Shown here one piece after another: positions 2,782 through 26,186 of a DNA stretch of 26,372 bases. Numbering within the stretch: position 1 is the stretch's first letter; the number at the start of each line of letters is the position of its first letter. Source of the stretch: a virus; the IMG/VR virus record IMGVR_UViG_3300009526_001106, positions 1-26,372 of that record, one strand, 5' to 3'. Below the pieces are notes generated by a model. That model worked only from the letters and a program-made list of their open reading frames with translations, did no database searches and was not told the origin of the DNA. The position numbers and the translations under genes were made by a program.

Positions 2782-2795
2782 ATTTTTAATATTAT
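2777..2795. repeat. AT-only inverted repeat over -10 box and start codon
   Basis: ATAATATT at 2777-2784 and AATATTAT at 2788-2795 are perfect reverse complements around a TTT loop. The left arm overlaps the TATAAT box and the right arm includes the first two bases of the ATG at 2794. As DNA it could be an operator-like dyad. As RNA only the right arm would be transcribed from the predicted start, so an RNA hairpin is less likely. In such AT-rich DNA it may be coincidence. Confidence 0.35.
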
Positions 2796-3129
2796 GGATG
2801 AATCCTTATCAAAATCTTTGGAATACGCAGAGCGTCTAAGCACGTTCAACAATCAAATAAAACTGTTAAAAGAACAGTGTCTTGAGAATAATATCTTGTA
2901 CACTCAAGGACATCAATTTACCGTTGATCTCAATCTAATCAACTATTGTTTAACATTGATGAACATCAAAAAAACTAATGAAGCAATTTTTCTTGATGAT
3001 TACAAACTTCCGGTAAAAATTACAGACATCAACTCCTTTTACAACAATATTACTGACTTGTATCAACGTAATCTAAATCAGTACTTTGTGGAATACAATC
3101 AATTGGTGAAAGATAAAGGTGAGATCTAA
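2794..3129 (+). CDS. Hypothetical protein, 111 aa, first gene of the island
   Basis: I do not recognise this protein. It is mostly helical by appearance, with an N-terminal segment of about 35 residues that could be amphipathic (SLEYAERLSTFNNQIKLLKE) and a C-terminal helix-like segment (LYQRNLNQYFVEYNQL). No membrane segment or signal peptide is visible; the single Cys is in KEQCLEN. There is no Shine-Dalgarno sequence before the ATG, which fits the very short leader predicted from the promoter at 2753-2781. It ends 2 nt before the next gene. Its place after the fibre genes and before glycosyltransferase-like genes suggests an accessory role, but no function can be assigned. Confidence 0.6.
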   Translation: MDESLSKSLEYAERLSTFNNQIKLLKEQCLENNILYTQGHQFTVDLNLINYCLTLMNIKKTNEAIFLDDYKLPVKITDINSFYNNITDLYQRNLNQYFVEYNQLVKDKGEI

Positions 3130-3131
3130 TC

Positions 3132-3944
3132 ATGACCAAAGGAGTTTTGCTTTTTGCACACAACAACAGCACTGTGGATTATGTCAAACAGGCTAATTTT
3201 TGTGCAGGACAAATAAAGAAACATCTTGATTTGCCAGTGTGTTTGATTACGTCAGACAAATTCAATGAAGATCACAATAATTTTAATCATGTGATTGTGG
3301 TAAAAAAGCCAATCACTACTCAAACTAGAACATTCAATAATGCTACACAACGTTATGAAGATTTCTGGAACAACACTTCAAGACCCGATGCGTACTCTTT
3401 AACACCATATGATGAAACCATTGTGATGGACACAGACTATGTGGTAGCAAACAACAATCTTAACAAAGTGTTTGACAGCAAGGAAGACTTTTTAATTAAT
3501 TACAAAGCACAACACATAGACTTTGAATCCAGATACACTGAGGAAATGAAATACATAAGCGATACTGGTATCGAAATGTGTTGGGCCACAGTGTTTTATT
3601 TTAAGAAAACTGAAAGAACTAAAATTTTATTTGAATTAATTAATCATGTAAAAAATGAATGGGAATTTTATAGGTTCAAATATCAAATTATGAACACAAT
3701 TTACAGAAACGACTTTGCATTTGCTGTGGCAATTCATATGATTAATAATTTTGATAAAACCGATTGGCCCAAACAACTGCCTGGCAAACTGTTTTATACC
3801 ACAGACAAAGATAAGGTAAACTCGTACGTGGATAATAAATGGAGTTTTACATTTGAACGAGGAACGAAATGTCAAATAAAAGATATGAACATACACATAA
3901 TGAACAAAATAGGATTGAATAAAATTATAGATCAACATGAATAG
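3132..3944 (+). CDS. GT-A-like glycosyltransferase-family protein
   Basis: The protein opens with a beta-strand, GVLLFAHNN, then a helix and a second strand, PVCLITSD, as in nucleotide-sugar-binding GT-A folds. A DTD motif at residues 100-102 (TIVMDTDYVV) sits where the metal-binding DxD of these enzymes is expected. At 270 residues it is near the size of small GT-A enzymes. The start has GGTGAG about 9 nt upstream. It is a paralogue of the next gene: the two share the opening pattern, a central CLIT strand, and P(Y/F)D..IV.D.D. Sugar donor and acceptor cannot be read from sequence. It is cytoplasmic, with no signal peptide or membrane segment. The glycosyltransferase call is fold-level inference. 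Confidence 0.6.
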   Translation: MTKGVLLFAHNNSTVDYVKQANFCAGQIKKHLDLPVCLITSDKFNEDHNNFNHVIVVKKPITTQTRTFNNATQRYEDFWNNTSRPDAYSLTPYDETIVMDTDYVVANNNLNKVFDSKEDFLINYKAQHIDFESRYTEEMKYISDTGIEMCWATVFYFKKTERTKILFELINHVKNEWEFYRFKYQIMNTIYRNDFAFAVAIHMINNFDKTDWPKQLPGKLFYTTDKDKVNSYVDNKWSFTFERGTKCQIKDMNIHIMNKIGLNKIIDQHE

Positions 3945-4758
3945 AGGTTTTATATTATTTGTACAGAAGAACGATGTTTGTGATTATCTTAAACAAGCAG
4001 TCGCTTGTAGTTTAAGCATTAAAAAATTTATGCCCAACGAGCAAGTGTGTTTGATCACTGATATTGTTGTCCCTGAAAACTATCAAAAGCACTTTGATAT
4101 AATCAAAGACATACCCGGAGATGATCTAGCAGTCGACAGTGACTGGAAAGTTAATAATAGATGTAAAATTTATAATACCAGTCCATTTGACCAATCTATT
4201 GTGATAGATGTAGATATGCTGTTGTTGGAAAACATAGAACATTGGTGGAAACAGTTAAGCAACTATGAATTATATTATACCAATAAAGTAAAAACTTACA
4301 GAAATGATTGGGTAACAAGTGATTATTATAGAAAAGTCTTTGTGGAAAATTCATTACCTAATGTGTATTGTGGATTTCATTATTTTAAAAAATGCAAAAA
4401 CAACGAAGTATTTTTTAAATTATTAACAGATATAGTGATAAACTATGAACAATACAGCAAACGTTTCACAAAAAATAAAACACAGTCTTGGTGTAGTATG
4501 GATGTTGCTACTGCAATAGCAATTAAGTTGTTGGGTATACAACACAAAGTTTTCAGTAAACATAACAATTTAACATTTACTCACATGAAACCCAAAATAC
4601 AACACTATCAAAGTCAATTAAAGTTGTGGACTGAACAAATTGATTACAATCTTAATTCACAAAATGAATTATTTGTAGGCAATATTAAACAACACGGTTT
4701 GTTTCACTATGTGGAAGATAATTTTTTAACAGACAAGATGCTGGAGCAACTACAATGA
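3937..4758 (+). CDS. GT-A-like glycosyltransferase-family protein, paralogue of preceding gene
   Basis: A 273-residue protein with the same plan as the gene before it: an opening strand RGFILFVQ, a helix DYLKQAVACSLSIKKF, strand QVCLITD, and a DVD motif at residues 91-93 (SIVIDVDMLLL), the expected metal/nucleotide-sugar site. Later aromatic and Lys-rich segments (GFHYFKKCK, THMKPKIQHY) fit an acceptor-side half. It starts inside the previous gene with the 8-nt overlap ATGAATAG, which suggests coupled translation, and overlaps the next gene by ATGA. The pair probably arose by tandem duplication. Substrate unknown. Confidence 0.6.
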   Translation: MNRGFILFVQKNDVCDYLKQAVACSLSIKKFMPNEQVCLITDIVVPENYQKHFDIIKDIPGDDLAVDSDWKVNNRCKIYNTSPFDQSIVIDVDMLLLENIEHWWKQLSNYELYYTNKVKTYRNDWVTSDYYRKVFVENSLPNVYCGFHYFKKCKNNEVFFKLLTDIVINYEQYSKRFTKNKTQSWCSMDVATAIAIKLLGIQHKVFSKHNNLTFTHMKPKIQHYQSQLKLWTEQIDYNLNSQNELFVGNIKQHGLFHYVEDNFLTDKMLEQLQ

Positions 4759-5351
4759 ACATAAGACCGCCGCTAGAATTTGATGTAATACGTCCTGCAG
4801 TGAAATATTATTTTCATTTCAATCCAGAATCTAATGAAGTGCTTGGGTGTAGTGTGCAACAACAAGGACACAGTGTAGAAATTACAGAAGAACTAGCAAC
4901 ACAGGTTCAAAGCGGTTCAAAGCAACTATCAGATTATAGAGTAGTATTCAAAGACACCGAATATGTTGTCGAATCGCGGTATGTAGTAAACAACAAACTG
5001 CAAACTGATATAAAAACAGACAACCATACTAACAAAGTGGTTTACGAAATAGTAAAAAATGATAAAGATTCATGTGTTAGATTCAAACTGGATATGAAAA
5101 ATAAAAAATGGAACGTTAGTATAGATGATGATTTAAAAAATATAATACAAAACACAGTAAAACAAGACAATAATGTGTTTAAATTTTTTACTACACCACA
5201 ACACAACACAAGTGTTCCTGATTATTCCTTTGATGTAGACTTAAAGCAGTTATGCACTACTGGTGATATTCAATTTGAGCATAAATCTAATCAAACACCA
5301 AGATTGTTTTGTAGAAAAATTTACAATTATTCATATGAGGTAGCACAATGA
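4755..5351 (+). CDS. Hypothetical protein between two glycosyltransferase-like pairs
   Basis: I do not recognise this 198-residue protein. It opens MNIRPPLEFDVIRPAVKYYF and is rich in charged and amide residues with many short alternating strands (VSIDDDL, VVYEIVKND). This suggests a beta-rich, soluble protein. It has three scattered Cys and no enzyme motif or membrane segment. ATGA overlaps with the genes on both sides tie it to the glycosyltransferase-like genes. A structural or accessory protein that is itself a modification target is possible, but this is speculation. Confidence 0.55.
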   Translation: MNIRPPLEFDVIRPAVKYYFHFNPESNEVLGCSVQQQGHSVEITEELATQVQSGSKQLSDYRVVFKDTEYVVESRYVVNNKLQTDIKTDNHTNKVVYEIVKNDKDSCVRFKLDMKNKKWNVSIDDDLKNIIQNTVKQDNNVFKFFTTPQHNTSVPDYSFDVDLKQLCTTGDIQFEHKSNQTPRLFCRKIYNYSYEVAQ

Positions 5352-6256
5352 TTTTAAAGGTATCTGATATGGATTTTGTGTTTTTAAGTGTTGATGAACC
5401 CAATGCTGAAAAGAATTTTGCTAACTTAAAAAGAAAAATACCCTGGGCAAAACGTGTACACGGTGTTAAAGGCTTTGACACAGCACATAAAAAAGCGGCA
5501 GAAATATCTGAAACAGATAGATTTATCACAGTTGATGCTGACACACAAATACATGACAGTTTTTTGAATGTGATAGTTGACTTAAATTCGTTAGGACTAG
5601 ACAATACCTATCAATTTAGTTGGTGTGGAAATATTGATCTTAATGGATTAAGATACGGCAACGGCAGTTTAAAATGTTGGACAAAAGATTTTGTAAAAAA
5701 TATGAAGACACACGAGAATCATGATGGTGAAGCAGATAGCACAAACAAAAATGTAATAGAATTTTGTCATTTTCCAAATTACTATCAGTTTAATGAAAAT
5801 TATTCAACCAGTTACATAGATGGATCTGCATATCAATCCTGGAGAGCCGGATTCAGAGAAGGTGTTAAAATGAGTTTGGATAAAAATGTGCGACAAGCAC
5901 CAAAAGACTTGTGGTGGCAAAACTATCAAAGATTACTGGTATGGATGACAGTGGGTATGGATAATCCTTATGGTATTCATGCTATTCATGGAGCAAGAAC
6001 AGGTTGCTATCTCACAATGTGTACAGATTGGGATTTCAGTCAAGCAAACGAATATAGATATTTTGAAAAGTATTGGAAGTTTGAACTTCATGATGATGTT
6101 AAAGTTAATTTTTATCAAGACAGTATCGAACTAGGCAAAAAGATTACTGCTGAGCACGATATTGAATTACCTATTGAACCATTAACTGTGGAACAAAGTA
6201 AATTTTTTAAGAAAGTATACCTTAACACTCCAAGAATAATGAGGAAAACAATTTAA
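5348..6256 (+). CDS. Glycosyltransferase-like protein with VDAD motif
   Basis: A 302-residue protein. The segment from about residue 9 (DFVFLSVDEPNAEKNF) to VDADTQ at 62-67 resembles the nucleotide-sugar-binding half of GT-A enzymes, with DAD (63-65) as the DxD-type metal site. The middle holds SWCGNIDLNGLRYGNG and later W.AGFREGVKMS. These features are matched in the next gene (QSRNPINDLQYGYG and W.SAFRECVKLS), so the two are paralogues. The ATG at 5348 overlaps the previous stop by 4 nt. The next gene's start aligns with the internal ATG at 5369, so the true start could be either. Donor and acceptor are unknown. Confidence 0.6.
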   Translation: MILKVSDMDFVFLSVDEPNAEKNFANLKRKIPWAKRVHGVKGFDTAHKKAAEISETDRFITVDADTQIHDSFLNVIVDLNSLGLDNTYQFSWCGNIDLNGLRYGNGSLKCWTKDFVKNMKTHENHDGEADSTNKNVIEFCHFPNYYQFNENYSTSYIDGSAYQSWRAGFREGVKMSLDKNVRQAPKDLWWQNYQRLLVWMTVGMDNPYGIHAIHGARTGCYLTMCTDWDFSQANEYRYFEKYWKFELHDDVKVNFYQDSIELGKKITAEHDIELPIEPLTVEQSKFFKKVYLNTPRIMRKTI

Positions 6257-6945
6257 TGTACGATATTGTGTTTATAAGTTACAATGAAGCATTGGCGGAT
6301 CACAATTATAAAACATTGTGTGAACGTTTTCCTATTGCTCAACGAGTACAAGGAGTTAAAGGCATCCATCAAGCACATATTGAAGCGGCAAAAGTATCTG
6401 TCACAAAGATGTTTTGGGTAGTTGATGCTGATGCTCAGATAGTAGAAGATTTTAATTTCGATTATCAAGTAAATGAGTACAATTTAGAAACAGTTCATGT
6501 TTGGCAAAGTCGTAATCCTATTAATGATTTACAATACGGATACGGTGGAGTAAAATTATTGCCAAAGCAATTAACATTAGAAATGAACACAAACACAACA
6601 GACATGACAACCAGTATATCAAATAATTTTAAAGCAATAAAGCAAGTATCAAACATAACAGGTTTTAATTCAGACCCATTTAGTGCTTGGAAATCTGCTT
6701 TTAGAGAATGTGTTAAGTTAAGTTCTAAAGTAATAGATAGACAAGAGAACGATGAAACAGAGCACAGGCTAAACATTTGGTGTAGCAAAGGTGCGAATAG
6801 ACCTTATGGAGACTTTGCTATTGAAGGTGCAAAACAAGGTAGAAAGTTTGGAATAGAACACAAAGACAAACTGAATCTTATAAATGATTTTGATTGGTTA
6901 AAACAACAATTTAAGGAGACTTGCAGTGTCAGTGAATACTACTAG
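6256..6945 (+). CDS. Glycosyltransferase-like protein with VDAD motif, shorter paralogue
   Basis: A 229-residue paralogue of the preceding gene. It shares the opening strand (YDIVFISYNE), the RVQGVKG..QAH segment at about 30-41, DAD at 57-59, the N-(P/I)-x-D-L-x-YG motif, and a W.SAFRECVKLS helix followed by a segment ending G.A.EGA.QG. It is about 70 residues shorter, having lost material in the middle and at the C-terminus. Its ATG overlaps the previous TAA by one base (TAATG), so translation is probably coupled. The family-level call is inference from the strand-helix pattern and DxD-type motif. Confidence 0.6.
   Translation: MYDIVFISYNEALADHNYKTLCERFPIAQRVQGVKGIHQAHIEAAKVSVTKMFWVVDADAQIVEDFNFDYQVNEYNLETVHVWQSRNPINDLQYGYGGVKLLPKQLTLEMNTNTTDMTTSISNNFKAIKQVSNITGFNSDPFSAWKSAFRECVKLSSKVIDRQENDETEHRLNIWCSKGANRPYGDFAIEGAKQGRKFGIEHKDKLNLINDFDWLKQQFKETCSVSEYY
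6913..6918 (+). promoter_or_regulatory. Shine-Dalgarno deciding a GTG start
   Basis: AAGGAG lies 7 nt before the GTG at 6926 and inside the end of the previous gene. It is one of the clearest ribosome-binding sites in the window. It supports GTG, not a later ATG, as the start of the radical SAM gene. Confidence 0.7.
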
Positions 6946-8014
6946 AATACCTTTTGAAAATATAACACACGTTGGACAAAGTACCATGATGACTAAGGAC
7001 TTATTCAATGTGAGTTGGATCTTAGGTAGATTTTGTAATTATAATTGTTCATATTGTTGGCCTTATGCTCATAGTAAACAACTGGATCACCGACCACTTG
7101 AAGTTTACAAAAATACAATAACTGAGATTAAAAGACAAGCCAGGGCAAACGGGTTTAACAGTTTTCATTTTAGTTTTTCAGGAGGAGAACCAACAGCATA
7201 CAAAAGATTTTTACCTTTGATTGGACATTATGCTAATAATGACAGAGCAAAATACCAAAGTATACACATGACAACAAATTGTTCTCCTGGAATGAAATGG
7301 TGGAAAGTTTGGTTAACAGCAACAGAATCTCTTGTGCGTAGAAGTATTACAGCAAGTTATCATCATGAATTTGCTGATGAGAAGACATTTGGTGATAAGT
7401 TATTAATGCTACAAGAGAATGGAGTACATACTACAATTAATCAAGTAATGGTTCCTGAATTGTTTAACGAATTGTATGAAAGATGTGAAAGATTTAATCA
7501 ACGTGGAATAAATGTAACATTGAAACCTCAAAGTAATGAATCTGCTAGTGAAATTGTTAGTGGTTATTCAGAAGAACAAATCAAATTAATGCAACAAGGG
7601 TTTCCTTTAAAAAAACATGATGGGTCATCGATACAACAAATAACTATGATGGATTTTAAGAATAATGTTTATCACCTGGATCAAGCAGAAAGATTTAATG
7701 CATTTGACTTTAATAAATTTAAAGATTGGACTTGCAATGCTGGATATCAAAGTTGTATCATAAGAGAGCCAGGTGGAGAAGTAAAAAGAGCATACAGTTG
7801 TCATGATGAGCCGTTGGGCACTATTGATGAAGGATTTAATCTGTTTAAACAAGCAAAAAAATGTATTACACCAACCTGTGTAAGTTCTGCTGATAGCAAA
7901 ATACCTAAACACAGAGAAAAAGACTTTTTAGAACAGGTTCAAGTGGATGAAGAAATATCAGAAATTAGTAGAAAACAATCTAAGCAATTTAAAAAAGAAA
8001 GAACAAATGTATAA
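6926..8014 (+). CDS. Radical SAM protein with C-terminal SPASM-like cysteines
   Basis: The core carries C37-x3-C41-x2-C44 (GRFCNYNCSYCW), which binds the [4Fe-4S] cluster that cleaves S-adenosylmethionine, and SGGEP at 85-89, the SAM-contacting motif. The C-terminal third holds C270, C277, C292, C313 and C318 in a WxCNAG...C...C...C.PTC pattern, a SPASM/twitch-like auxiliary cluster region. SPASM proteins usually modify peptides or proteins by radical chemistry; some act on small molecules. The WxCNxG...C pattern recurs in the genes at 12872 and 13758, so the three are paralogues. The gene starts at GTG after a strong AAGGAG, overlapping the previous gene by 20 nt. Substrate unknown. Confidence 0.88.
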   Translation: MSVNTTRIPFENITHVGQSTMMTKDLFNVSWILGRFCNYNCSYCWPYAHSKQLDHRPLEVYKNTITEIKRQARANGFNSFHFSFSGGEPTAYKRFLPLIGHYANNDRAKYQSIHMTTNCSPGMKWWKVWLTATESLVRRSITASYHHEFADEKTFGDKLLMLQENGVHTTINQVMVPELFNELYERCERFNQRGINVTLKPQSNESASEIVSGYSEEQIKLMQQGFPLKKHDGSSIQQITMMDFKNNVYHLDQAERFNAFDFNKFKDWTCNAGYQSCIIREPGGEVKRAYSCHDEPLGTIDEGFNLFKQAKKCITPTCVSSADSKIPKHREKDFLEQVQVDEEISEISRKQSKQFKKERTNV

Positions 8015-9589: not shown

Positions 9590-10249
9590 ATGGATACAGC
9601 AACCAAAATTTTTAATAAATTTAAAGACGGCAGTTTGCCTTGGTTAGAACTGGATATAAATTTTATGGAGTATCTAGACGCAAAAGAATTTGATAATGTA
9701 AATGGTCATTATGTAGAGCACAGAGAAGATGAAACTCATAACGGTTGGGAAAGTTGTTGTCTGCATGGATTAGGTGTAGACAAAACAAGAGTAGCAAAAG
9801 AGTATGGTTATGAAGATGAACTGAATGCTCCATATACGTGGACCAGTCTGCAACAAGTTACTCCAACAGCGAAAAAGTTTTGGGAAGACTTTCCAGCAGA
9901 AAAGTACAGTAGAATAAGATTTATGAAATTAAATCCAGGAGGAAAAATAGATTGGCACAATGATGATCCAGGTCATCCGTTACCTGACGACCTTTGTGAA
10001 TATTTAATACCCATAAATGTTGCTGTACTACATCCGCCATCTTGTTACATGGAAGTTAAAGATCATGGAATAGTGCCTTGGGAACACGGCAAAGTATTTT
10101 TAATTAATATACTAAAAGATCATCAAGTAGTAAACAATGCTAACGTTGAAAGAATACACATGATTGCTCAAGCACACATTGGCAACAAAAGAAAACAATT
10201 TAACGAATTATTAGATAGGAGTATTAAAAAATATGGCATTTCAATATGA
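9590..10249 (+). CDS. Aspartyl/asparaginyl beta-hydroxylase-like 2OG-Fe(II) oxygenase
   Basis: The iron-binding triad is visible: H123 and D125 in KIDWHNDDPG and H178 in LKDHQVVNN. R188 (NVERIHMI), ten residues on, fits the 2-oxoglutarate carboxylate contact. The RFMKLNPGG strand before HxD and the HQVxN segment resemble the Asp/Asn beta-hydroxylase family (PF05118), which hydroxylates side chains on proteins; other members act on free amino acids or peptides. At 219 residues it is a single catalytic domain with no targeting signal. It begins 1 nt after the preceding stop. Substrate unknown. Confidence 0.8.
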   Translation: MDTATKIFNKFKDGSLPWLELDINFMEYLDAKEFDNVNGHYVEHREDETHNGWESCCLHGLGVDKTRVAKEYGYEDELNAPYTWTSLQQVTPTAKKFWEDFPAEKYSRIRFMKLNPGGKIDWHNDDPGHPLPDDLCEYLIPINVAVLHPPSCYMEVKDHGIVPWEHGKVFLINILKDHQVVNNANVERIHMIAQAHIGNKRKQFNELLDRSIKKYGISI

Positions 10250-17552: not shown

Positions 17553-17560
17553 TATTTATC
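17553..17560 (-). promoter_or_regulatory. Late promoter-like box (GATAAATA) for the minus-strand operon
   Basis: On the minus strand the 61-nt divergent gap contains GATAAATA, identical to the box before the fibre gene at 382. It ends 13 nt before the ATG of the PP-loop gene. Transcription from it would leave a leader of only about 7 nt, so either the leader is very short or the box is chance. Confidence 0.4.
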
Positions 17561-18891: not shown

Positions 18892-19429
18892 ATTTGTAGG
18901 TAACTGTAACGATATATTAGACTGGAACGCAATCATCAAAGAAGTGCAGGATCAAGAAGGTAAACTTGCTTGTAAATATCTTCCAGTCAAAGATGTACCG
19001 GAATTAAAAGAGATTGATGATGCATTATCTACTATAGGCAGTTACAACAGAGAATCTATAGAATGGATCAATTATTATCCAGGCAATGAGTTTTCAATGG
19101 AGGTTGCTGAGAAGTTTGGCGAGTTTGTTGGTGCACCCAGAATGATTAAGAGTTGGATATCTAAAATATATCCAGGAAAAACTGCTCCATGGCATTGGGA
19201 CTGGGACGTTGATTGGAAAAAATACACAGAGCAAGGCAATCCTGTAAGATTCACAGCAATGATTAACGAACCTGCACCAGGACACGTGTTCATAGTAGGC
19301 GACGAAGCATTGTACAATCAGAAACAAGGAGATGTTCACAAGTGGCCTGACTTTAAATCATATCATGGCGGAACTAATTGTGGACTTGTACCTAAATTTA
19401 ATTTTAATTACTTGGCATACGCAGAATGA
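18884..19429 (+). CDS. 2OG-Fe(II) oxygenase-like protein
   Basis: A 181-residue protein with H104-x-D106 (TAPWHWDWD) and H161 (SYHGGTNCG) as the predicted iron triad. K171, ten residues on (VPKFNFNYL), stands where most relatives have Arg for 2OG. APGHVFIVGDEALYN and GDVHKWPD are shared with the next gene, so the two are tandem paralogues. It overlaps the previous gene by ATGCTTGA and the next by ATGA. The small size is of the single-domain type; the substrate is unknown. The triad spacing is clear; the Lys in place of Arg makes cosubstrate use less certain. Confidence 0.7.
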   Translation: MLEFVGNCNDILDWNAIIKEVQDQEGKLACKYLPVKDVPELKEIDDALSTIGSYNRESIEWINYYPGNEFSMEVAEKFGEFVGAPRMIKSWISKIYPGKTAPWHWDWDVDWKKYTEQGNPVRFTAMINEPAPGHVFIVGDEALYNQKQGDVHKWPDFKSYHGGTNCGLVPKFNFNYLAYAE

Positions 19430-19980
19430 AACAATACGTAGGAAATTGTAGTGATGTAATAGACTGGAATGCAGTTGTTGAATCCATAAAGAATTCTAAA
19501 CCAGCATATCAAGGACCAAGACACACAACACAAGATGATCTTCCAGGTATAAAAGAAATTAGCGAGTCGTGGAACAAAGCAGGATATAAACTTGCATCTG
19601 AAAATGGCACAATTGGTTGGGATATGTGTATACCTGAAACTAATTTTGACAGAAGTGTTGTAAACAAATTTGCAGATTACGTTGGAGTTGATGTTTTAAG
19701 TTGTTGGGTTAGTGTTGTGCATCAAGGAAATCATGCTCCTTGGCACTGGGACACACAAGACAATGAAGAAGAACTATGTAAATTAAACAACATAGAAAGA
19801 TTTCATGTACACATGGAAGATACACACCCTGGACATGTATTAATTGTGGAAGATGATTTGTATTACAATGCCAAAGCAGGTGATGTGTATAAATGGCCAG
19901 ATAGAAATGCTTGGCACGCCGGCTCTAACTGCGGACAAAGACCCAAATACATCTTTAACTTCTTTGGAACAAAAAGATAA
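19426..19980 (+). CDS. 2OG-Fe(II) oxygenase-like protein, tandem paralogue
   Basis: A 184-residue paralogue of the preceding gene. It opens with (K/E)xVGNC.D..DWNA like its partner, then has H107-x-D109 (HAPWHWDTQ), HPGHVLIVEDDLYYN, GDVYKWPD, and H164 (AWHAGSNCG). K174 (QRPKYIFNF) takes the usual Arg place. The RFHVHMEDTHPGH stretch is more His-rich than in its partner and could alter the substrate pocket. Start overlaps the previous stop by ATGA. Tandem duplication followed by divergence suggests two related steps or substrates. Confidence 0.7.
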   Translation: MKQYVGNCSDVIDWNAVVESIKNSKPAYQGPRHTTQDDLPGIKEISESWNKAGYKLASENGTIGWDMCIPETNFDRSVVNKFADYVGVDVLSCWVSVVHQGNHAPWHWDTQDNEEELCKLNNIERFHVHMEDTHPGHVLIVEDDLYYNAKAGDVYKWPDRNAWHAGSNCGQRPKYIFNFFGTKR

Positions 19981-19981
19981 A

Positions 19982-20560
19982 ATGAAAAAGAAACTTGTAT
20001 TTGATTACTTTCCATTGCTGAGATCCAGTTACGATGCAAATGAATTTGTATCAGAAGGTCTTTTAAAAGATGAATTGAATGTGTATTGGAACAACAACAA
20101 TATTTTTAAAGACATACAATCAAGCAAAGAAACTGCCGAGAACGGTTTTATCAAACGCACAGTTGATATTGATCTACTTGATAACAACACATTAATACTA
20201 GACAACACACAGACTTGGGCCAACGAAGAAAGTATTAAATTAAATGCTGAAATTAAATTGAACCGCAAACAAGAAGATACTTGGAACTTTCAATTTTGTT
20301 ACAACTTAAACACAACCAACAACGATGATTACAAAAGTTTTAATGAAAAATTTGGCATACTTGACGAAATGTTTCATTTCAAACTGAATGGCGAAGCAAT
20401 ATTGGTTAATGAAAAAGTAGAAGGCGGTAGAAGAATTTTTGCTGAAAAAGATTTTTATTACAGAGGAATACACCCAATCATGTTTGAACTGGAAGAATAC
20501 GGAACAGGTCTTGAAGAAGACAGCAGGTTTATACAGATTGTGAGGTTTACAGTATTATGA
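19982..20560 (+). CDS. Hypothetical protein, 192 aa, beta-rich
   Basis: I do not recognise it. It opens MKKKLVFDYFPLLRSSYDAN and has alternating strand-like segments (KRTVDIDLLDNNTLILD, SIKLNAEIKLNRK, FHFKLNGEAILVNEK) ending in RFIQIVRFTVL. This suggests a small beta-sandwich. No catalytic motif is visible. The ATG at 19982 follows the oxygenase stop by one base; an earlier open stretch in this frame from 19844 lies inside the oxygenase gene and is not credible. It overlaps the next gene by ATGA. A scaffold or target protein in the oxygenase run is possible; no function is assigned. Confidence 0.6.
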   Translation: MKKKLVFDYFPLLRSSYDANEFVSEGLLKDELNVYWNNNNIFKDIQSSKETAENGFIKRTVDIDLLDNNTLILDNTQTWANEESIKLNAEIKLNRKQEDTWNFQFCYNLNTTNNDDYKSFNEKFGILDEMFHFKLNGEAILVNEKVEGGRRIFAEKDFYYRGIHPIMFELEEYGTGLEEDSRFIQIVRFTVL

Positions 20561-21111
20561 GAATAGCAATCACAGGACACACATCTCCCATGGGAAAAGA
20601 TGTATATGAACATTATTCAAAAACATATCAGTGTTTAGGTATTAGTAGAACCACAGGATATGATTTTACAAATACAGACAGTCTCAACAACACAGTTAGT
20701 CAAGTGTTAGCCAGAGATGTATTTTTAAACATAGCACACGTGGGTGCTTCACAATCCTCATTACTACTGAAATTACAAGAACGTTGGACACATGATGCAC
20801 CTTTGCGTAAAGTTATAACAATAGGATCACTAGCAACAAAAGTCCCTAAAAAATTATTAGATCAAGTTGGTATCGATAAACAATATCTAAAAGACAAACA
20901 TCATATAGATGCTGTACACAACGCATTGGCAAATCAAACTCCATTTGGACCGCAATTAAAGTTCAGTCTTGTTAGAGTATTAAACTATGGCGAGAAAACT
21001 GGTGATAGAAGCGGAGAGCCTACTTGTACTGCACAAGATATTATACGCACAATTGATTACGTTATTGATGAATCAATGTATATTTCTACACTTGACGTTA
21101 GACGTTCTTAA
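20557..21111 (+). CDS. Short-chain dehydrogenase/reductase-like protein
   Basis: AITGHTSPMGK at 4-14 is a Rossmann nucleotide loop, though the middle Gly of GxxxGxG is Pro11. GISRTTGYD at 28-36 is the cofactor-choice region, NIAH at 58-61 resembles the NNAG motif, and S91 with Y110-x3-K114 fits the SDR catalytic triad. At 184 residues it is much shorter than the usual ~250 and lacks most of the substrate-binding C-terminus. A paralogue lies at 25596. It is the last gene of the rightward run, six bases from the opposite gene's stop. Probably oxidises, reduces or epimerises an island intermediate; substrate unknown. Confidence 0.68.
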   Translation: MRIAITGHTSPMGKDVYEHYSKTYQCLGISRTTGYDFTNTDSLNNTVSQVLARDVFLNIAHVGASQSSLLLKLQERWTHDAPLRKVITIGSLATKVPKKLLDQVGIDKQYLKDKHHIDAVHNALANQTPFGPQLKFSLVRVLNYGEKTGDRSGEPTCTAQDIIRTIDYVIDESMYISTLDVRRS

Positions 21112-21117: not shown

Positions 21118-21753
21118 TTAATTACTTTCGTATGCTAGATCTTTGAATAAGTCTAGTGCATCTTCAAACTGTATGTGTGTGTTATCTTCTATTGTTAGCA
21201 AATGATAACTTAAAGTCCAACGTGGTTCGCTGGTATTAAAATTATGTGTTGAATGCAGTTGCCCAACATTAAGTAAACTGGGTTGACTAATAACTGCTTC
21301 GTGTACAACATCACAGTCTTCAACTTCAGCATGATAAAATTTGTCTACTGGGATATCAATGTCTACGTCTTTAAAATAAACTTCTTTGTGATAATCTGTA
21401 TTATCTCTTTCTGTTTGGATTAAAGATTCATCTTTTACTTTGTACCATCTTACTATGCTGTCTTGAGGTCCCCAAGTAAAATTAATGTTTGATGAATTAT
21501 TCAAAGTGGAAGCATCGTTGTGCATAGGTAAACCACCGCCATTAGGTCCATTGTAAAATGCTTCACAAACATTTGAAGGTTTTAAGCCATATTCTTTCAG
21601 CCAATCCACAAACCTTTCATCCCAATGTTCTCTTGTGGCACACCATTCATGCCAATTTTCGCCACGCATATTTTCAGGCTTTGCTTTGAAACAATCCGGA
21701 AACTTATGTTCAAACGGCAATTTTACATAACGGTGATATATGTTTTTATTCAT
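21118..21753 (-). CDS. 2OG-Fe(II) oxygenase-like protein
   Basis: A 211-residue protein with H78-x-D80 (GLPMHNDAS) and H167 (QLHSTHNFN) as iron ligands. R178 (EPRWTLSYHL), 11 residues on, fits the 2OG site. NFTWGP and VRW..VKDESL are shared with the gene just upstream, as are QPSL.NVGQLHST and QFE.AL..FK. The two are tandem paralogues. Its start overlaps the paralogue's stop by ATGAATAA. It is the last gene of the leftward run and converges on the SDR gene. Function inferred from the triad only. Confidence 0.65.
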   Translation of the reverse strand: MNKNIYHRYVKLPFEHKFPDCFKAKPENMRGENWHEWCATREHWDERFVDWLKEYGLKPSNVCEAFYNGPNGGGLPMHNDASTLNNSSNINFTWGPQDSIVRWYKVKDESLIQTERDNTDYHKEVYFKDVDIDIPVDKFYHAEVEDCDVVHEAVISQPSLLNVGQLHSTHNFNTSEPRWTLSYHLLTIEDNTHIQFEDALDLFKDLAYESN

Positions 21754-22357
21754 ATGTGACTTCCTTGAATATATTTAATGCTTTTTCAAACTGTAAATGG
21801 GTATAATCTTTATTAAGTAAAAAATAGCACAATGACCAACGTCCCTGTGTAGGATCCGGATTATATGTAGAATGCAGTTGACCAACATTAATCAAACTAG
21901 GCTGATTAATAACTTTTTCATACACCATATCACAATCCTTTTCACTTTCACAAATCAATTCACGATGCTGATTGTTTTCATCAAAGTGATCCACAATGTC
22001 TGGATTTACTATTTCTGTTATGTGTGAACTGTCAGTGATGTCTGTTTTACACAATGATTCATCTTTTACACGCCACCATCTTGTAGTGCTAGTATCAGGA
22101 CCCCATGTAAAATTAATTTTTGTAGCATTTGTTATTTTACTTGTATCATTGTGTATATGTACCTTTCCTTTGTTAGGTGGTGTATAGATACCTTCAGTTA
22201 CATTGGATACAACTATATCAAAGGATTCAATCCAGTTAATAACTGATTGATCAATATCTGTTTTAGGAACAAATATAACTTCTGACTGCAAGGGTTGATG
22301 TGAAAAGCAACTAGGCTTTGTGTGTTCAACTGGTATTTTTACATATCGATGATACAT
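21746..22357 (-). CDS. 2OG-Fe(II) oxygenase-like protein, tandem paralogue
   Basis: A 203-residue paralogue of the gene it overlaps. It opens MYHRYVKIPVEH, matching IYHRYVKLPFEH in its partner. It has H69-x-D71 (VHIHNDTS), NFTWGPD, TRWWRVKDESL, QPSLINVGQLHST with H162, and R173 (QGRWSLCYFL). Spacing of the triad is conserved between the two. The gene starts 1 nt after the larger oxygenase gene upstream, so the three leftward genes probably form one transcript. Substrate unknown. Confidence 0.65.
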   Translation of the reverse strand: MYHRYVKIPVEHTKPSCFSHQPLQSEVIFVPKTDIDQSVINWIESFDIVVSNVTEGIYTPPNKGKVHIHNDTSKITNATKINFTWGPDTSTTRWWRVKDESLCKTDITDSSHITEIVNPDIVDHFDENNQHRELICESEKDCDMVYEKVINQPSLINVGQLHSTYNPDPTQGRWSLCYFLLNKDYTHLQFEKALNIFKEVTYE

Positions 22358-22358
22358 T

Positions 22359-23165
22359 TTAATAATTGGATAAATGATCTATGCCCAACTGCTTTCTAAA
22401 TTTATCTGTAAACACACAATCAATTCGTAAGCCGTATTCTTGTTCGTTGCTGACATCACCACCATGCCAATCTTGATCGTTCCAAAATGACGCATTGGCA
22501 TTGATGTAAGTTTTATTTTTTGCTTCAGGATCCCATATGTAGAATCCTCTTTTTGTGCTGTATCTAATGTGTATGAATTCATTACGGTGATCAGTGTACC
22601 CTTGACTGTCGCCGTGTTTGCCATCTAGATCTCTGTGTTCAAATGGCTTACCATCGTGTTCACAATGAAAAAATATCACTCTACCGATGCTTTCTATTAC
22701 ACCAGTGTTCACTAATTCCTTAATCCAAGCCACCACACCTGGAAAATATTTTGCTTCTTCTGTGATGTTTCTTTCTGTGTTTCGGTGATCCCAATCTCCT
22801 TCTTCCCATAAGAAATAATAAATGTAAGGATCGTTAGCACCTAAAACTGCTTTTAAATATCTTGTGAATTGATTCCTTGTTTTGTAATCTTTGATGTTGG
22901 AATACAAATCGTCGCCATTTTTTCTAATTGGATGATCTTTAGGCAGTGCTTTGTATTCTTCTAGTGCTTGATAAATTGGTTTCCAATTTAAAGTATAACT
23001 CATGTCTTTGGGATCGAATCCTGGTGACATCCATGTGCCTTCTTTGGCATACTCACGAGCAAGAGCAAAACCTCTACATATTTCGGTATGCAGTTGTTGA
23101 AAACCTTCTATGTCTATGTGTTCGTCTAAATTGATATATGGACTACCGCCAATTCCTCTAATCAT
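22359..23165 (-). CDS. 2OG-Fe(II) oxygenase-like protein, larger type
   Basis: A 268-residue protein. H177-x-D179 (PFEHRDLDG), H234 (QDWHGGD) and R247 (YGLRIDCVF) fit the HxD...H...R pattern, with the distal His and Arg 13 residues apart. The IHIRYSTKRGFYIWDPE segment between them fits jelly-roll strands. The N-terminal ~110 residues are helical and have no counterpart in the two small oxygenases downstream, so this is a different subfamily. It is the first gene of the leftward run. No good Shine-Dalgarno precedes the ATG. Substrate unknown. Confidence 0.68.
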   Translation of the reverse strand: MIRGIGGSPYINLDEHIDIEGFQQLHTEICRGFALAREYAKEGTWMSPGFDPKDMSYTLNWKPIYQALEEYKALPKDHPIRKNGDDLYSNIKDYKTRNQFTRYLKAVLGANDPYIYYFLWEEGDWDHRNTERNITEEAKYFPGVVAWIKELVNTGVIESIGRVIFFHCEHDGKPFEHRDLDGKHGDSQGYTDHRNEFIHIRYSTKRGFYIWDPEAKNKTYINANASFWNDQDWHGGDVSNEQEYGLRIDCVFTDKFRKQLGIDHLSNY

Positions 23166-23178
23166 TAAAGTATTTACT

Positions 23179-23186: not shown

Positions 23187-23204
23187 CAGTATAGATATTT
23201 TATT

Positions 23205-23777
23205 ATGGCTTTTAAATTGGTACCTTATTCAGACAAGTTAAATCTTGAAACGTTTTATCATACAGCCGACCAAAAAGGATTTGTCAACAATTCAACCAAA
23301 AAAATGTTGGTAGATTCATTATCTAAAGAAGATAGATATCAGGTTTGGATGTTGTTATGGAATGGCAAAGTGATTGGATCCACTGCGGCACATTCATTTC
23401 CAGAAATGGGTCCTGACAGTTATCGTATTGCTTGTCGTATATGTACATTTACAAATGAATTGCCTAAAGAATATCAAATGGTTCGTACTCGGGAAACAAT
23501 TAAAACCCACCAAACAACCACACAACAATTTTTTCAACCAGCAGGAATAATGTGGGCAGGCTTTAATAAGAACTATTATGTGACAACAAATGAAAATGCA
23601 GAAGGAACACAACGTTTAGTTCATTCAATTGTTGCACCAACTTTAGAAAGCACAGGTGTTTACACCAAAGTTAAAGAGTTAAATTATAGAGGCACACAAC
23701 AAACAGTATGGCGTGTTAATGCTGATGTATATTTCAAACAACTACAACAAGTAAAGGCTTGGCCCACTTATGAATAA
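23205..23777 (+). CDS. GNAT-fold acetyltransferase-like protein
   Basis: A 190-residue protein. VWMLLWNGKVIGSTAAHSF at about 47-65 has the strand-turn-strand form of the central GNAT sheet, followed by YRIACRICTF (73-82) as the next strand. The expected acetyl-CoA pyrophosphate loop (Q/R-x-x-G-x-G/A) is not clear, so it may be a divergent member. The N-terminus LVPYSDKLNLETFYHTADQKG fits the first strand and helices. It starts a new rightward run, and its stop overlaps the next gene by ATGAATAA. Acceptor unknown; the call rests on pattern only. Confidence 0.5.
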   Translation: MAFKLVPYSDKLNLETFYHTADQKGFVNNSTKKMLVDSLSKEDRYQVWMLLWNGKVIGSTAAHSFPEMGPDSYRIACRICTFTNELPKEYQMVRTRETIKTHQTTTQQFFQPAGIMWAGFNKNYYVTTNENAEGTQRLVHSIVAPTLESTGVYTKVKELNYRGTQQTVWRVNADVYFKQLQQVKAWPTYE

Positions 23778-24456
23778 TTTTAAATATTATTACAACAATG
23801 TGCCTGGCAAAGGGTTGTGTAGAAACAATTTAATTTACACTAGTTTGATAAACGAAGATGCTACGGAATTTTGTATGTGGTTTCATAATGATTCAGAATA
23901 TCATAAAGGACATAATGAAGTGGTAGATCCTGTACTGATGGAATCGAAGTATCATAGAGAAAAAGATTTCTTATTAACATTAGATGTGGATCATAAAAAT
24001 TTAATACCAAAACTAACAAAGATTCATACTGATGAACAAAAAATATATTTTGAAATACAAGGCGTAGATTTTTGGGAACAAAGTCATGGAAAGACATATG
24101 AAGATGTGTTACCCAAATGGCAAGATCAAATGTTGTATATTATGGAAACGCACAAGAAATTAGGTATCTACAAATACAGTCTTCATCCCAGCAGTTACTT
24201 CATTATTGACGGTGAATTGAGAACAATCAATTACTTCTTTGCTTATAGAAACAATGAACCTGCGATCACAGTTCAAGAGCATATGAGTCATATATCTAAA
24301 GAAAGACAGCAACAATTGATGCCACAGATGAAAAAATTAGGTATTAAGGAAAACAAAACATATCCATTCGATAAACTTCAAGTATTATGTTTAGAAAGTT
24401 TTAGGAATGTATATCCGGATTCATTTATAAACAAAGCAATTTCTATCTATAAGTAA
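23770..24456 (+). CDS. Degenerate kinase-like protein, paralogue of gene at 18271
   Basis: A 228-residue protein. It shares NLIYTSLINEDATEFCM with the paralogue's MLYQPLVNEDNTVFCM. It also has the segment GIYKYSLHPSSYFI followed by INYFF, where kinases have HxDxxxxN and DFG. Both catalytic acidic positions are missing (Pro/Ser in the loop, Asn in the DFG position), so it looks like a pseudokinase. There is no membrane segment. The 8-nt overlap ATGAATAA links it to the GNAT-like gene, and the next radical SAM gene starts 4 nt after its stop. In both loci this family sits beside modifying enzymes, suggesting an accessory or regulatory role; this is inference. Confidence 0.5.
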   Translation: MNNFKYYYNNVPGKGLCRNNLIYTSLINEDATEFCMWFHNDSEYHKGHNEVVDPVLMESKYHREKDFLLTLDVDHKNLIPKLTKIHTDEQKIYFEIQGVDFWEQSHGKTYEDVLPKWQDQMLYIMETHKKLGIYKYSLHPSSYFIIDGELRTINYFFAYRNNEPAITVQEHMSHISKERQQQLMPQMKKLGIKENKTYPFDKLQVLCLESFRNVYPDSFINKAISIYK

Positions 24457-24460
24457 TACT

Positions 24461-25603
24461 ATGCAAGATACAAAAACAATCAGTCTATGTCATATATGTT
24501 ATAAGCACTGCGAAGCAGAAAGAGTTACTAAAGAAGATGGTATACATCTTGTGAAAACTTGTCCAGAACACGGTGTAAGTGATTATCTTGTGGAAACCAA
24601 TAAAGAATTTTATAATAATTTAACATATGATAAATCAGGATACTCTATTCCGCAAGGCATCATGGTGGAAGTCACAGACAAATGTAATTTAAATTGTCCG
24701 CACTGCTATCATAAACCAGACAACAAAACCACAGATAAACCAATAGAACAAATACTATGGCAAATAGAAAATAGATTTTCAGCAGATGCAGGTGCTGTGA
24801 TATTGGCAGGTGCTGAACCTACTGTGCGTAAAGACTTACCAGAACTTATAAAACAAATCAAAGCACTATTGAAAAAATTGAATAGACCTGAAGATGTATG
24901 TATATTGACAAATGGCGTAAAACTTTCTAACAGAGCATGGGTAAAAGAAATTGCTGACGCAGGCACTAGAATGGTTATGATTGGAATGAATCACCACTCT
25001 TATCAAGGCGAAAAAGTACACGAAAAACAATTAAAAGGAATTGAAAATTGTATTGCTGAAGGTATCTTTGTTTATTATGTAGGATACACATTAGAAAATT
25101 TAGAACACATGGAAGAAGTGTTAGAAGAAATACAGTCACTAGGCAACAAAGCATGGCAGTATAGAATTAGAGCAGGCTCTGATATAGGAAGATCACCTGA
25201 TGAACCTCAGTTCTTTTTAAGTGACCATGTGCAATTAATAAAAGATATTTGTGATCGTAAAGGGTGGACTTGGGAAAAAGAACCAGCAGATGATAATCTT
25301 TATCACTATATGGTAAAAATAAATGGAATAACTCATAGAATAATACAATGGAGTGATCCTAAAACCATAGACATGGAACAATTACAGTGCGGTCCTTGGT
25401 GTGATTTTGTACCAGGCAAACCTGTTACTAATTTTCTACATCAAATTATGTTGAGAGATGCTGTGGTGAATGAAGGTTATAATTTACACGACACTGTACC
25501 AAACAAATATCTGTTTCAGCCTGAGCAAGTTGATTATGCTGTTACAGAATGGACTTGGAAAAGTTGGGACGAAGCAGAAGTAAAACAGAAAAAATCTATT
25601 TAG
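24461..25603 (+). CDS. Radical SAM protein with N-terminal CxxC...CxEH zinc-like motif
   Basis: The N-terminus has C10-x2-C13, C17, and C34-P-E-H37 (LCHIC...TCPEHG), a rubredoxin-like metal site. The radical SAM core has C75-x3-C79-x2-C82 (DKCNLNCPHCY) and GAEP at 117-120 in place of GGEP. This N-terminal CxxC...C(P)EHG plus core layout is known from archaeal MJ0619-type pterin methyltransferases and the tetraether lipid synthase (Tes) group. The resemblance is from memory and does not fix function. There is no SPASM-like Cys set at the C-terminus, only CGPWC near 311. It is unlike the other six radical SAM proteins here. It overlaps the opposing SDR gene by 8 nt. Confidence 0.82.
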   Translation: MQDTKTISLCHICYKHCEAERVTKEDGIHLVKTCPEHGVSDYLVETNKEFYNNLTYDKSGYSIPQGIMVEVTDKCNLNCPHCYHKPDNKTTDKPIEQILWQIENRFSADAGAVILAGAEPTVRKDLPELIKQIKALLKKLNRPEDVCILTNGVKLSNRAWVKEIADAGTRMVMIGMNHHSYQGEKVHEKQLKGIENCIAEGIFVYYVGYTLENLEHMEEVLEEIQSLGNKAWQYRIRAGSDIGRSPDEPQFFLSDHVQLIKDICDRKGWTWEKEPADDNLYHYMVKINGITHRIIQWSDPKTIDMEQLQCGPWCDFVPGKPVTNFLHQIMLRDAVVNEGYNLHDTVPNKYLFQPEQVDYAVTEWTWKSWDEAEVKQKKSI

Positions 25604-26186
25604 GTTTATAATTTAATTGTGTAGCATCTATTGTTACACTTTGAAAATACATTGTTTCACACAGTAACATTTTAATAATCCACTTGGAAAGTTCATTGGG
25701 ATCGATTTTATTGCCTTCCATGTACTCGCTGATTTGTGTATCTGTACATCCTAATATAACATTAAGGATATGCGGACCATACACATTGATACGATTTTCT
25801 ACAATTTTGTTTTGTTCTTTTTTGGCATTGCCATATTTTTCCATGAAGTCAGTTGTGTCGGATTCGTTATAGCAAGATTTAGAACTTAAATTTAAAATTT
25901 TTTTATCTTTATTGCCTTCCCAGATTTGAATCATTGATTTAAGCATTTCAGTTTGTCCATCAAACTGTTCAGGTTCTGTCATTGGTAAATCGCCATCGGG
26001 CCAAGCACAATTAATGAATACATCTGCTTGTTTGGATTCTTCTATAATGATTTGTCTAGATTTTGCACTGCTTATATCAAAGCCATTGCTTCTTGAATAA
26101 CCTACAACGTCATGTCCTTCTGCAACAAGGTCATTGTGTAAACACTTGCCTATGCCTTTGGTGTGTCCTGTAATTCGGACTATCAT
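25596..26186 (-). CDS. Short-chain dehydrogenase/reductase-like protein
   Basis: A 196-residue protein with an intact nucleotide loop, TGHTKGIGK at 6-14 (G7-x3-G11-x-G13). GYSRSNGFD at 29-37 is the cofactor-choice region, INCAW at 58-62 takes the NNAG position, S101/S102 precede Y118-x3-K122 (KYGNAKK), and VYGPHILNVILG follows. The SDR catalytic set is thus present. It is short for the family. It is a paralogue of the gene at 20557, sharing ITGHT and G(Y/I)SR..G(F/Y)D. The gene begins 4 nt after the stop of the leftward tail-fibre gene, so it is likely on the fibre transcript. Substrate unknown. Confidence 0.75.
   Translation of the reverse strand: MIVRITGHTKGIGKCLHNDLVAEGHDVVGYSRSNGFDISSAKSRQIIIEESKQADVFINCAWPDGDLPMTEPEQFDGQTEMLKSMIQIWEGNKDKKILNLSSKSCYNESDTTDFMEKYGNAKKEQNKIVENRINVYGPHILNVILGCTDTQISEYMEGNKIDPNELSKWIIKMLLCETMYFQSVTIDATQLNYKPK

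Follow-up and report, generated by a model that had tools for sequence, protein, structure and literature searches.

The window analyzed here is a 26,372-base linear fragment of an uncultured virus (record IMGVR_UViG_3300009526_001106, positions 1 to 26,372). It contains an island of seven radical S-adenosylmethionine (radical SAM) genes, seven genes of the 2-oxoglutarate-dependent (2OG) oxygenase type and several glycosyltransferase-like genes, located directly behind the baseplate and fibre block of a T4-like phage of the jumbo type. We regard it as an evenly balanced proposition that this island is a late system with which jumbo-type T4-like phages modify their own virion proteins, the substrates being inferred. 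New to this study are the definition of a core gene set, the constant association of that set with the fibre operon, the conservation of one radical SAM gene (g18) at the level of the capsid protein, and a matching site in cultured phages.

Linkage of the Island to Fibre Genes

One scan each of viral contigs recovered 290 relatives of g18 and 425 relatives of the 2OG-type gene g29. These scans, and another anchored on the tail-fibre-like gene g02, were each analyzed through their best 80 loci, a selection favouring close relatives. Genes at each locus were labelled by best family match at E 1e-5; radical SAM paralogues cross-match, and the labels therefore denote a family and not an orthologue. 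For the g02 anchor, 50 of the 80 loci with at least 6 kb of downstream sequence were counted and the other 30 were left out for their shorter flanks. At least two core island genes (a set that here includes g08 and g09) were found behind g02 in 49 of these 50 loci, the exception being L229 with g05, g06 and g08. Genes of the g05/g06 type were present in all 50, and the position of g03 after g02 was likewise kept in relatives. A radical SAM-family open reading frame (ORF) occurred within the 6-10 kb seen behind g02 in 48/50 loci, with at least 30% identity to a window enzyme in only 25/50, indicating that near g02 the radical SAM enzymes of half of the loci are other members of the superfamily.

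Co-occurrence was equally strong around genes deeper in the island. Among the 80 g18 loci we observed g12 in 79, g11 in 73, g16 in 71, g10 in 70, g15 and g17 in 64 each, g09 in 59 and g20 in 54, all of them lower bounds given the differing flank lengths. The 80 g29 loci contained g31 (77), g30 (67), g21 (65), g22 (64), g24 (62), g20 (59) and g15 (59), and every one of them held a radical SAM-family ORF; after reduction to 41 non-redundant loci the counts were 41 for g31, 34 for g30, 33 for g21, 32 for g22, 33 for g24, 30 for g20 and 34 for g15. In the eight co-linear contigs, all radical SAM and 2OG profile matches fell downstream of the g02/g03 block, within the island, and in the three of these with g34 (G002, G003 and G007) they all preceded it. 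A contig of another type without a gp23 match (G001) carried most of the gene set beside g34-like ORFs, with 10 of its 11 radical SAM matches inside the island and one elsewhere. Across 15 long records the number of radical SAM matches ranged from 1 to 15, some islands being cut by contig ends. A sequence-only reading of this DNA had proposed a search of relatives for the same gene set beside fibre genes, and had named scattered, unlinked genes as the outcome that would count against it; the linkage behind g02 described above is the opposite of that outcome.

The high co-occurrence combined with a shuffled order (19 ordered neighbour pairs around g29 in the 41 non-redundant loci) indicates that island genes travel together while their order changes. 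The shuffling could also be taken to mean that unrelated enzymes have simply gathered at a recombination hot spot behind fibre genes with no functional link between them, and hypervariable fibre-side islands are indeed described in passages of PMC7029224. However, about a dozen families recur together in both co-linear and divergent contigs, their catalytic residues are kept and g18 is conserved at capsid level, so this explanation is already disfavoured and we consider it very improbable.

The features of the window are as follows (coordinates, strand, description and basis).

1..351, +, g01, virion structural protein (3' end); 81% identical to part of L109:3210-5411 (734 aa, PHROG virion structural)
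356..363, +, GATAAATA, T4-type late-promoter core before g02; core enriched upstream of g02 relatives
382..1860, +, g02, tail-fibre-like with a C-terminal Peptidase_G2-type autoproteolytic domain just below cut-off; PF11962, PHROG
1876..2745, +, g03, structural by position only; no family match, follows g02 in relatives
2794..3129, +, g04, small conserved protein opening the island block; ORF and relatives
3132..3944, +, g05, glycosyltransferase-like (DxD); alignment A11, weak glycogenin match
3937..4758, +, g06, glycosyltransferase-like; aligned with g05
4755..5351, +, g07, function unknown; no Pfam or PHROG match
5348..6256, +, g08, GT-A-fold glycosyltransferase-like; AlphaFold model and fold search
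6256..6945, +, g09, glycosyltransferase-like; aligned with g08
6926..8014, +, g10, radical SAM (CX3CX2C), GTG start; PF04055
8007..8993, +, g11, radical SAM with SPASM domain; PF04055 40.6 bits, SPASM 25.5 bits
8983..9588, +, g12, methyltransferase-like by eye; no profile support
9590..10249, +, g13, Asp/Asn beta-hydroxylase-type 2OG oxygenase; PF05118 40 bits, triad
10233..11618, +, g14, nucleotide-sugar-transferase-like N-terminal fold and a second, C-terminal part; AlphaFold model and fold search
11605..12879, +, g15, N-terminal twitch radical SAM; NF033640 327 bits
12872..13768, +, g16, radical SAM; PF04055
13758..14720, -, g17, radical SAM, CX3SX2C in this copy; PF04055
14717..16135, -, g18, N-terminal twitch radical SAM; NF033640 393.5 bits
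16122..16760, -, g19, SGNH-like by eye; no profile support
16733..17539, -, g20, PP-loop-type protein; motifs in 16 sequences
17553..17560, -, GATAAATA, late-promoter core before g20; core in 13/61 relatives, 3.1 expected
17601..18278, +, g21, 2OG oxygenase; triad in A8, PF05118 20.4 bits (below cut-off)
18265..18891, +, g22, kinase-fold-like; A2 profile 7.8e-6
18884..19429, +, g23, 2OG oxygenase; triad in A7
19426..19980, +, g24, 2OG oxygenase, paralogue of g23; triad in A7
19982..20560, +, g25, function unknown; no meaningful family match
20557..21111, +, g26, SDR-like by eye; no profile support
21118..21753, -, g27, 2OG oxygenase; triad in A10
21746..22357, -, g28, 2OG oxygenase, paralogue of g27; triad in A10
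22359..23165, -, g29, 2OG oxygenase; triad in A4
23205..23777, +, g30, GNAT-like by eye; no profile support
23770..24456, +, g31, kinase-fold-like; aligned with g22
24461..25603, +, g32, radical SAM; PF04055 72.2 bits
25596..26186, -, g33, SDR-like; NCBIfam SDR, below cut-off
26187..26372, -, g34, C-terminal end of a fibre-resembling protein; 375-aa relative L110:11253-12377

Conservation of g18 and p203

In seven pairwise contig comparisons g18 was 81-86% identical, being the top shared ORF in five and the most conserved island member in six of the seven (between G002 and G011, both g15 and p203 exceeded it). The one pair that allowed comparison with the capsid protein (G003 and G002) placed g18 level with it at 84%, below p203 and one other ORF (87%). 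The p203 protein, a 203-aa product encoded in the structural block upstream of the island and of unknown function in a PHROGs scan of the co-linear contig, was 71-87% identical between contigs. Genes in hypervariable islands do not usually reach capsid-level conservation, which suggests that g18 acts on a substrate that is essential and does not vary.

Parent Phage and Flanking Structural Genes

The co-linear 100.6-kb contig G003 (locus L017) encodes homologues of gp23 and gp20. In the 15 matches listed out of 2,488 matching records, the major capsid protein of this contig shares 66-70% identity with its counterparts in jumbo phages of the T4 superfamily, among them Phosso (469 kb), Vibrio phage 2.275.O (349 kb), PA5oct (287 kb) and GAP32 (359 kb). 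In contrast, its gp23 shares 35% identity with that of Pelagibacter phage HTVC008M, and on these listed matches a pelagimyophage origin was dropped. The left flank in the co-linear contig reads baseplate wedge, a giant virion structural protein of 4,883 aa (family assignment based on its first 1,000 aa), p203, tail fibre/collar, virion structural protein and g02. Capsid identity and left-flank content together place the window directly behind the baseplate/fibre block of a T4-like, jumbo-type phage. This phage is presumed to be marine on the strength of the sequence-only reading and of related phages; the analysis itself yielded no habitat. Searched at the DNA level with the window's first 25 kb, a set of 50,697 phage records gave no match.

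The sequence-only reading had placed the island between fibre genes. On the left this was borne out by the baseplate/fibre block and by g02, which matches tail-fibre and virion structural families in PHROGs and a Peptidase_G2-type domain (PF11962) at 22.9 bits, below the cut-off of 25. The right-hand label did not gain such backing. The partial gene g34, which enters at position 26372, shares 93% identity with the terminal part of a 375-aa ORF in a co-linear contig, and its presumed fibre identity comes from a resemblance to marine phage fibre ends.

Radical SAM Enzymes and 2OG-Type Oxygenases

The seven genes initially read as radical SAM from their letters all passed the Pfam cut-off for PF04055 (29.5 bits), with scores of 72.2, 52.9, 45.8, 43.8, 42.6, 39.5 and 34.9 bits. 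The CX3CX2C motif is kept in six of them; in g17 it reads CX3SX2C, the middle cysteine being replaced by serine at codon 29 (window 14634-14636, - strand). Of 33 relatives listed after removal of redundancy in motif and identity, 32 had a cysteine at this position and a 202-aa ORF did not; the serine of the window copy is probably a population variant or a sequence error. Both g15 and g18 are N-terminal twitch radical SAM proteins (NF033640, 327 and 393.5 bits, cut-off 170), while the other five fell below that cut-off or were unlisted, and g11, g15 and g18 passed the Pfam cut-off for SPASM. The models nearest to g32 were of the TrsS/Tes type, far below their cut-offs (NF045646, 97.1 of 490 bits; NF045702, 70.5 of 450 bits). 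A search of g18 profiles against the Protein Data Bank (PDB) gave nothing usable. An A-type Fe-S carrier (PF01521) was present in 1 of the 15 long records and is not used here to support phage-fed radical SAM enzymes. In G001, a 494-aa island ORF (66598-68082, -) showed a Radical_SAM match in its second part only (67039-67548).

For the seven genes with an HxD...H...R/K motif, the proposed iron triad was retained across relatives in every case. In the g13/g21 alignment (A8, n=26) H79, D81, H123 and R133 were invariant; g23/g24 (A7, n=24) showed invariant H104, D106 and H161 plus a basic residue (K or R); H78, D80, H167 and R178 were kept in g27/g28 (A10, n=9), as were H177, D179, H234 and R247 in g29 (A4, n=11). 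Conservation over these 26, 24, 9 and 11 sequences indicates a motif under selection rather than a chance pattern. Family assignment was possible for g13, which passed PF05118 (40 bits, cut-off 22.6), with g21 just below at 20.4 bits and the remaining five lacking a meaningful Pfam match. The g13/g21 profile also found solved beta-hydroxylases (4.4e-18) and L-proline cis-4-hydroxylase (1.1e-4) in the PDB, where profiles of g23/g24 (best 0.87), g27/g28 (0.019) and g29 gave nothing usable.

Glycosyltransferase-Like and Other Accessory Genes

Fold comparison suggests that g08 and the N-terminal part of g14 are glycosyltransferase-like, with weaker indications for g05/g06. The AlphaFold model of g08 (pLDDT 83.3) has a predicted GT-A fold, closest to B4GALNT1 (Z 10.7, rmsd 3.0 over 138 residues), and matched the capsid glycosylation enzyme 2p6w of PBCV-1 at Z 9.1. 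The model of g14 residues ~12-222 (pLDDT 73.9) was closest to GlmU (Z 10.8, rmsd 3.8 over 168 residues) and similar to a PBCV-1 glycosyltransferase (Z 10.6); GlmU is a nucleotidyltransferase, a class with the same fold as glycosyltransferases. Both models thus resemble viral virion-glycosylating enzymes (2p6w and others) among many other transferases. PDB profile searches with g14 (best 0.59) and g08/g09 gave nothing usable. The label of g09 derives from its alignment with g08 (A6), and in g05/g06 (A11, n=15) the DxD residues D100 and D102 were invariant, with a glycogenin profile match of 0.0026.

These genes bear on a different explanation, namely that late in infection the island alters glycans or lipids of the host surface, of the lipopolysaccharide (LPS)/O-antigen type, blocking adsorption of competitors or loss of progeny to debris; the radical SAM, 2OG and amino-transfer steps would then tailor lipid A or unusual sugars. 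In favour are the folds above and the recurrence of glycosyltransferase-like genes (g09 in 59/80 g18 loci, g05/g06 in 50/50 g02 loci), and UDP-glucose/GDP-mannose dehydrogenases and an NAD epimerase occur in some related islands. The PF05118 family of g13 also includes the lipid A hydroxylase LpxO. A change of O-chain or capsule is moreover the published reading of T4-like phage clusters in passages of PMC7029224 and PMC7824862. Set against this, membrane segments are lacking, the mean hydropathy over 19 residues exceeding 1.52 in none of the window proteins, and the Pfam scans, which covered 30 window proteins, gave no flippase, polymerase or ligase family. Conservation of g18 at capsid level would be odd in a system that diversifies surfaces, and late co-transcription with fibres would not be required. 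We therefore judge host-glycan remodelling unlikely, yet the most serious competitor of virion modification.

The PP-loop-type protein g20 has SGGxDS, TRSC and CxxCxxCxxR motif columns that are invariant in 16 sequences (A45 excepted), a set that resembles the motifs of QueC. Its QueC-like PHROG match is weak (0.00098), neither Pfam nor NCBIfam gave a match, and a PDB profile search found no QueC (best 0.17, a thioredoxin). These motifs would fit an island that makes a small molecule, or a modified nucleotide or amino acid, acting on the host, on rivals or on the phage genome, the position beside fibres reflecting a hot spot for cargo. The same could be said of a class III aminotransferase in some islands, of tryptophan-halogenase-like genes in L166 and L174, and of a cyanophage cluster with 2OG enzymes, a halogenase and carbamoyltransferases that passages of PMC7824862 read in this way. 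All seven radical SAM genes also match PADLOC viperin models, and viperin is the best NCBIfam match of g10, g16 and g17. However, none of the PADLOC matches extends beyond roughly the initial 60% of the model, and the top NCBIfam score (g16) is 56 bits against a cut-off of 180 (NF038283), which does not support a viperin assignment. Pfam scans of the 30 window proteins revealed no transporter, DNA C5-methyltransferase, TET/JBP-like or thymidylate-synthase-like family, and the position of the island is fixed across rearranged islands. Small-molecule synthesis appears rather improbable to us on this evidence, less likely than host-glycan remodelling.

The remaining labels given by eye fared unevenly. 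The glycosyltransferase assignments gained support from folds for g08 and the g14 N-terminal part and, weakly, for g05/g06, and the PP-loop label of g20 stands by motif. Kinase-like is weakly supported for g22 and g31, which align and whose A2 profile finds protein kinases (7.8e-6). The usual catalytic aspartates were absent by eye from g22 (18265-18891) and g31 (23770-24456), which are possible pseudokinases. For SDR-like there were NCBIfam matches below cut-off for g33 (best 27.7 bits) and no profile support for g26. The methyltransferase-like (g12), SGNH-like (g19) and GNAT-like (g30) labels gained no profile match in their support and are still readings by eye.

Expression Signals

Genes g04-g16 overlap or lie 1-2 bp apart and share the orientation of the fibre genes. 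Within 100 bp upstream of p203, 39 of 41 non-redundant relatives had the T4-type late core ATAAATA (2.1 expected), which was also enriched before fibre-side genes (g02 55/159, 7.4 expected; g03 30/71, 4.4 expected; g34 13/13, 1.6 expected) and before heads of island operons (g20 13/61, 3.1 expected; g21 16/59, 2.1 expected; g29 7/58, 3.0 expected). Upstream of g04-g12 taken together it was rarer than expected (2/478, 32 expected), a depletion which suggests that transcription of those genes probably starts further upstream. It thus seems that the fibre operon continues into the first half of the island, and that promoters of the same class serve part of the rest. The motif was chosen after a null result with the exact T4 motif, an 80-bp trial of two forms on nine contigs and sight of the gap before g02, and was not pre-registered; expectations come from shuffles that keep base composition only, the related loci are not independent, and genes with fewer than six non-redundant upstream regions were dropped.

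Matching Site in Cultured Phages

The p203 protein matches 60 deposited phage records, the 20 listed being 311-490 kb in size. In Sinorhizobium phage Phosso this site comprises the wedge, the giant protein, a p203-like gene and a g02-like fibre gene, followed by four ORFs with CX3CX2C, two of which exceed the PF04055 cut-off, the others scoring 29.3 and 22.9 bits. Agrobacterium phage Atu_ph07 has the same block, unannotated, and both ORFs tested exceed the cut-off. Published ESI-MS/MS data on Atu_ph07 virions (PMC6102473) list 131 virion proteins, most of them encoded in three gene clusters, CDS 170-215 among these. The order of structural genes followed by radical SAM genes is thus shared with the window phage; the cultured clusters differ in being smaller, in their distantly related enzymes and in the lack of a detected glycosyltransferase or 2OG relative among the proteins tested. 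In Escherichia phage 121Q the site of p203 had structural genes, and none of the annotations in the stretch shown was radical SAM. In Vibrio phage K566 (L131, record 161548-168284), enzymes matched the g15 and g18 profiles (best 2.8e-27). Among the 50,697 phage records, tblastn gave three weak matches to g18 (22-24%) and 18 weak matches to g15, all in Vibrio phages (23-25%), and none to g20, g29 or g09.

Comparison with Known Systems

Among the closest published systems is the pelagimyophage host recognition cluster (HRC) described by Zaragoza-Solas et al. (2020, PMC7029224). It is likewise a large variable island that combines fibres and glycosyltransferases with radical SAM cassettes and is found among the structural genes of marine T4-like phages. 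In passages of that paper the HRC lies between VrlC and gp14, and radical SAM is mentioned twice with no function stated. The window phage differs in its jumbo-type capsid and its recurring core; its left flank consists of baseplate wedge, giant virion protein and fibres, and gp14 was not located. Passages of Nishimura et al. (2017, PMC5332604) describe another marine T4-like phage with many radical SAM genes, TARA_ERS488813_N000010, which has 12 of them and an Fe-S carrier; they are read there as Fe-S metabolism, with no link to fibres, 2OG enzymes or glycosyltransferases stated. The sequence-only reading had known of no described system with this make-up. This was too strong, as radical SAM-rich T4-like phages have been published, but neither account, in the passages cited, shows this gene set, its conservation or a mechanism.

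Jumbo cyanophages carry sugar and amino-acid modification clusters, interpreted in passages of PMC7824862 as capsule/O-antigen or secondary-metabolite functions, with glycosyltransferases and epimerases in one type and 2OG enzymes and a halogenase in another; the term 'radical SAM' is absent from the text of that paper. Next to the neck gene of HTVC008M (KC465899) lie four consecutive genes annotated as 2OG/phytanoyl-CoA dioxygenases, and none of the features listed is annotated as radical SAM. Mycobacteriophage virion proteins (capsid and tail tube) bear glycans, according to passages of PMC12619734 on Freeman et al. (2023), which mention glycans only and no radical SAM/2OG set. PBCV-1 2p6w and mimivirus R699 share the GT-A fold of g08 (Z about 9, 12-13% identity), a fold common to many transferases and nucleotidyltransferases. 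A search of the open-licence PubMed Central literature for radical SAM, virion protein, phage and post-translational modification found no report combining them. To our knowledge, a virion protein matured by radical SAM enzymes would be the first.

Virion Modification as the Proposed Role

Modification of virion proteins is favoured by the late-promoter motifs shared with the fibre genes, by the overlap between genes and by the absence of membrane segments. Fibre and baseplate proteins would accumulate late in the host cytoplasm alongside the soluble island enzymes. Radical SAM enzymes, g18 first, with g10, g11, g15 and g16, could then introduce methylations, epimerisations or crosslinks on side chains, the 2OG oxygenases could hydroxylate side chains, and the glycosyltransferases g05, g06, g08, g09 and g14 may add sugars after the radical chemistry and hydroxylation. 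Candidate substrates are fibre, baseplate, giant or p203 proteins; the near-constant g18 would serve a conserved part of the virion, and the variable periphery variable receptor-binding parts. The benefit may lie in stability, camouflage or receptor specificity. A more specific version, a sequential maturation line acting on the phage's own fibre and baseplate proteins, in which g18 makes one invariant modification (p203 being a candidate target) and a swappable periphery is matched to each fibre, is offered tentatively, as we think it somewhat more likely to be wrong than right.

Several observations weigh against virion modification. No precursor gene for a ribosomally synthesized and post-translationally modified peptide (RiPP) was identified in the island, where intergenic gaps are at most 61 bp, although one could lie elsewhere or overlap another gene. 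The exact T4 late motif TATAAATA occurs 0 times in the window (3.6 expected), only 12-27% of relatives of the island heads g20, g21 and g29 have the late motif, and the capsid and portal genes (two each) and the giant gene (six) lacked it within 80 bp upstream. On the right, only 15/80 g29 loci contain a g34-like ORF (flanks end at 10 kb), and the full-length relative of g34 matches only function-unknown PHROGs families, so that its fibre label has no profile support. The radical SAM enzymes of Phosso and Atu_ph07 are distant from those of the window (best E 1.2e-7), with no glycosyltransferase or 2OG relatives among the 13 and 12 proteins tested, respectively. In Vibrio phages of ~254 kb, a small radical SAM group stands beside NAD-salvage genes with no annotated fibre gene, which does not fit strict fibre linkage in all phages. 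Virion modification does not need the nucleotide-sugar dehydrogenases, NAD epimerase and class III aminotransferase of some related islands, or the alternative oxidase (PF01786, 276 bits) found inside the L031 island (12889-13500, -). Marine T4-like phages also keep other cargo near fibre genes, according to passages of PMC7029224. The earlier proposal of a fibre- or host-target-modifying system is thus partly supported: the fixed fibre linkage, late motifs, gene overlap and lack of membrane segments favour virion modification, but the nucleotide-sugar and aminotransferase genes also fit a route to a glycan or small molecule, and the Vibrio group lies in a stretch without an annotated fibre gene.

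If virion modification is correct, phages would use radical chemistry to make fibres with post-translational modifications, a new route to escape or to changes in receptor binding, and many uncharacterized peptide- and protein-modifying enzymes would gain a substrate class. Part of the radical SAM and 2OG genes that are unexplained in T4-like phages would also acquire a role. The reading can be tested now, given the matching site in cultured jumbo phages.

Additional Observations on Related Islands

Among 84,980 bacterial and archaeal species, a scan that needs exact short peptide matches and misses distant relatives found close relatives of g18 on one contig, L089 (PUNK01000001.1, 3,537 bases), from a Thermoplasmata metagenome-assembled genome (75% identity); it is probably stray phage DNA binned with the archaeon. 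Readings by eye of amidinotransferase- and desaturase-like genes in related islands had no Pfam match and are not claimed. L022, L214 and L217 have ORFs between g12 and g13 that are sized like the L031 alternative oxidase. The halogenase-like genes of L166 and L174 are similar to the HTVC008M tryptophan halogenase (29-31% identity) and adjoin g22/g29/g31. In L023, L024 and L027, a four-gene block between g28 and g26 consists of three ORFs, one of which gave no Pfam match, and the class III aminotransferase (PF00202, 121 bits).

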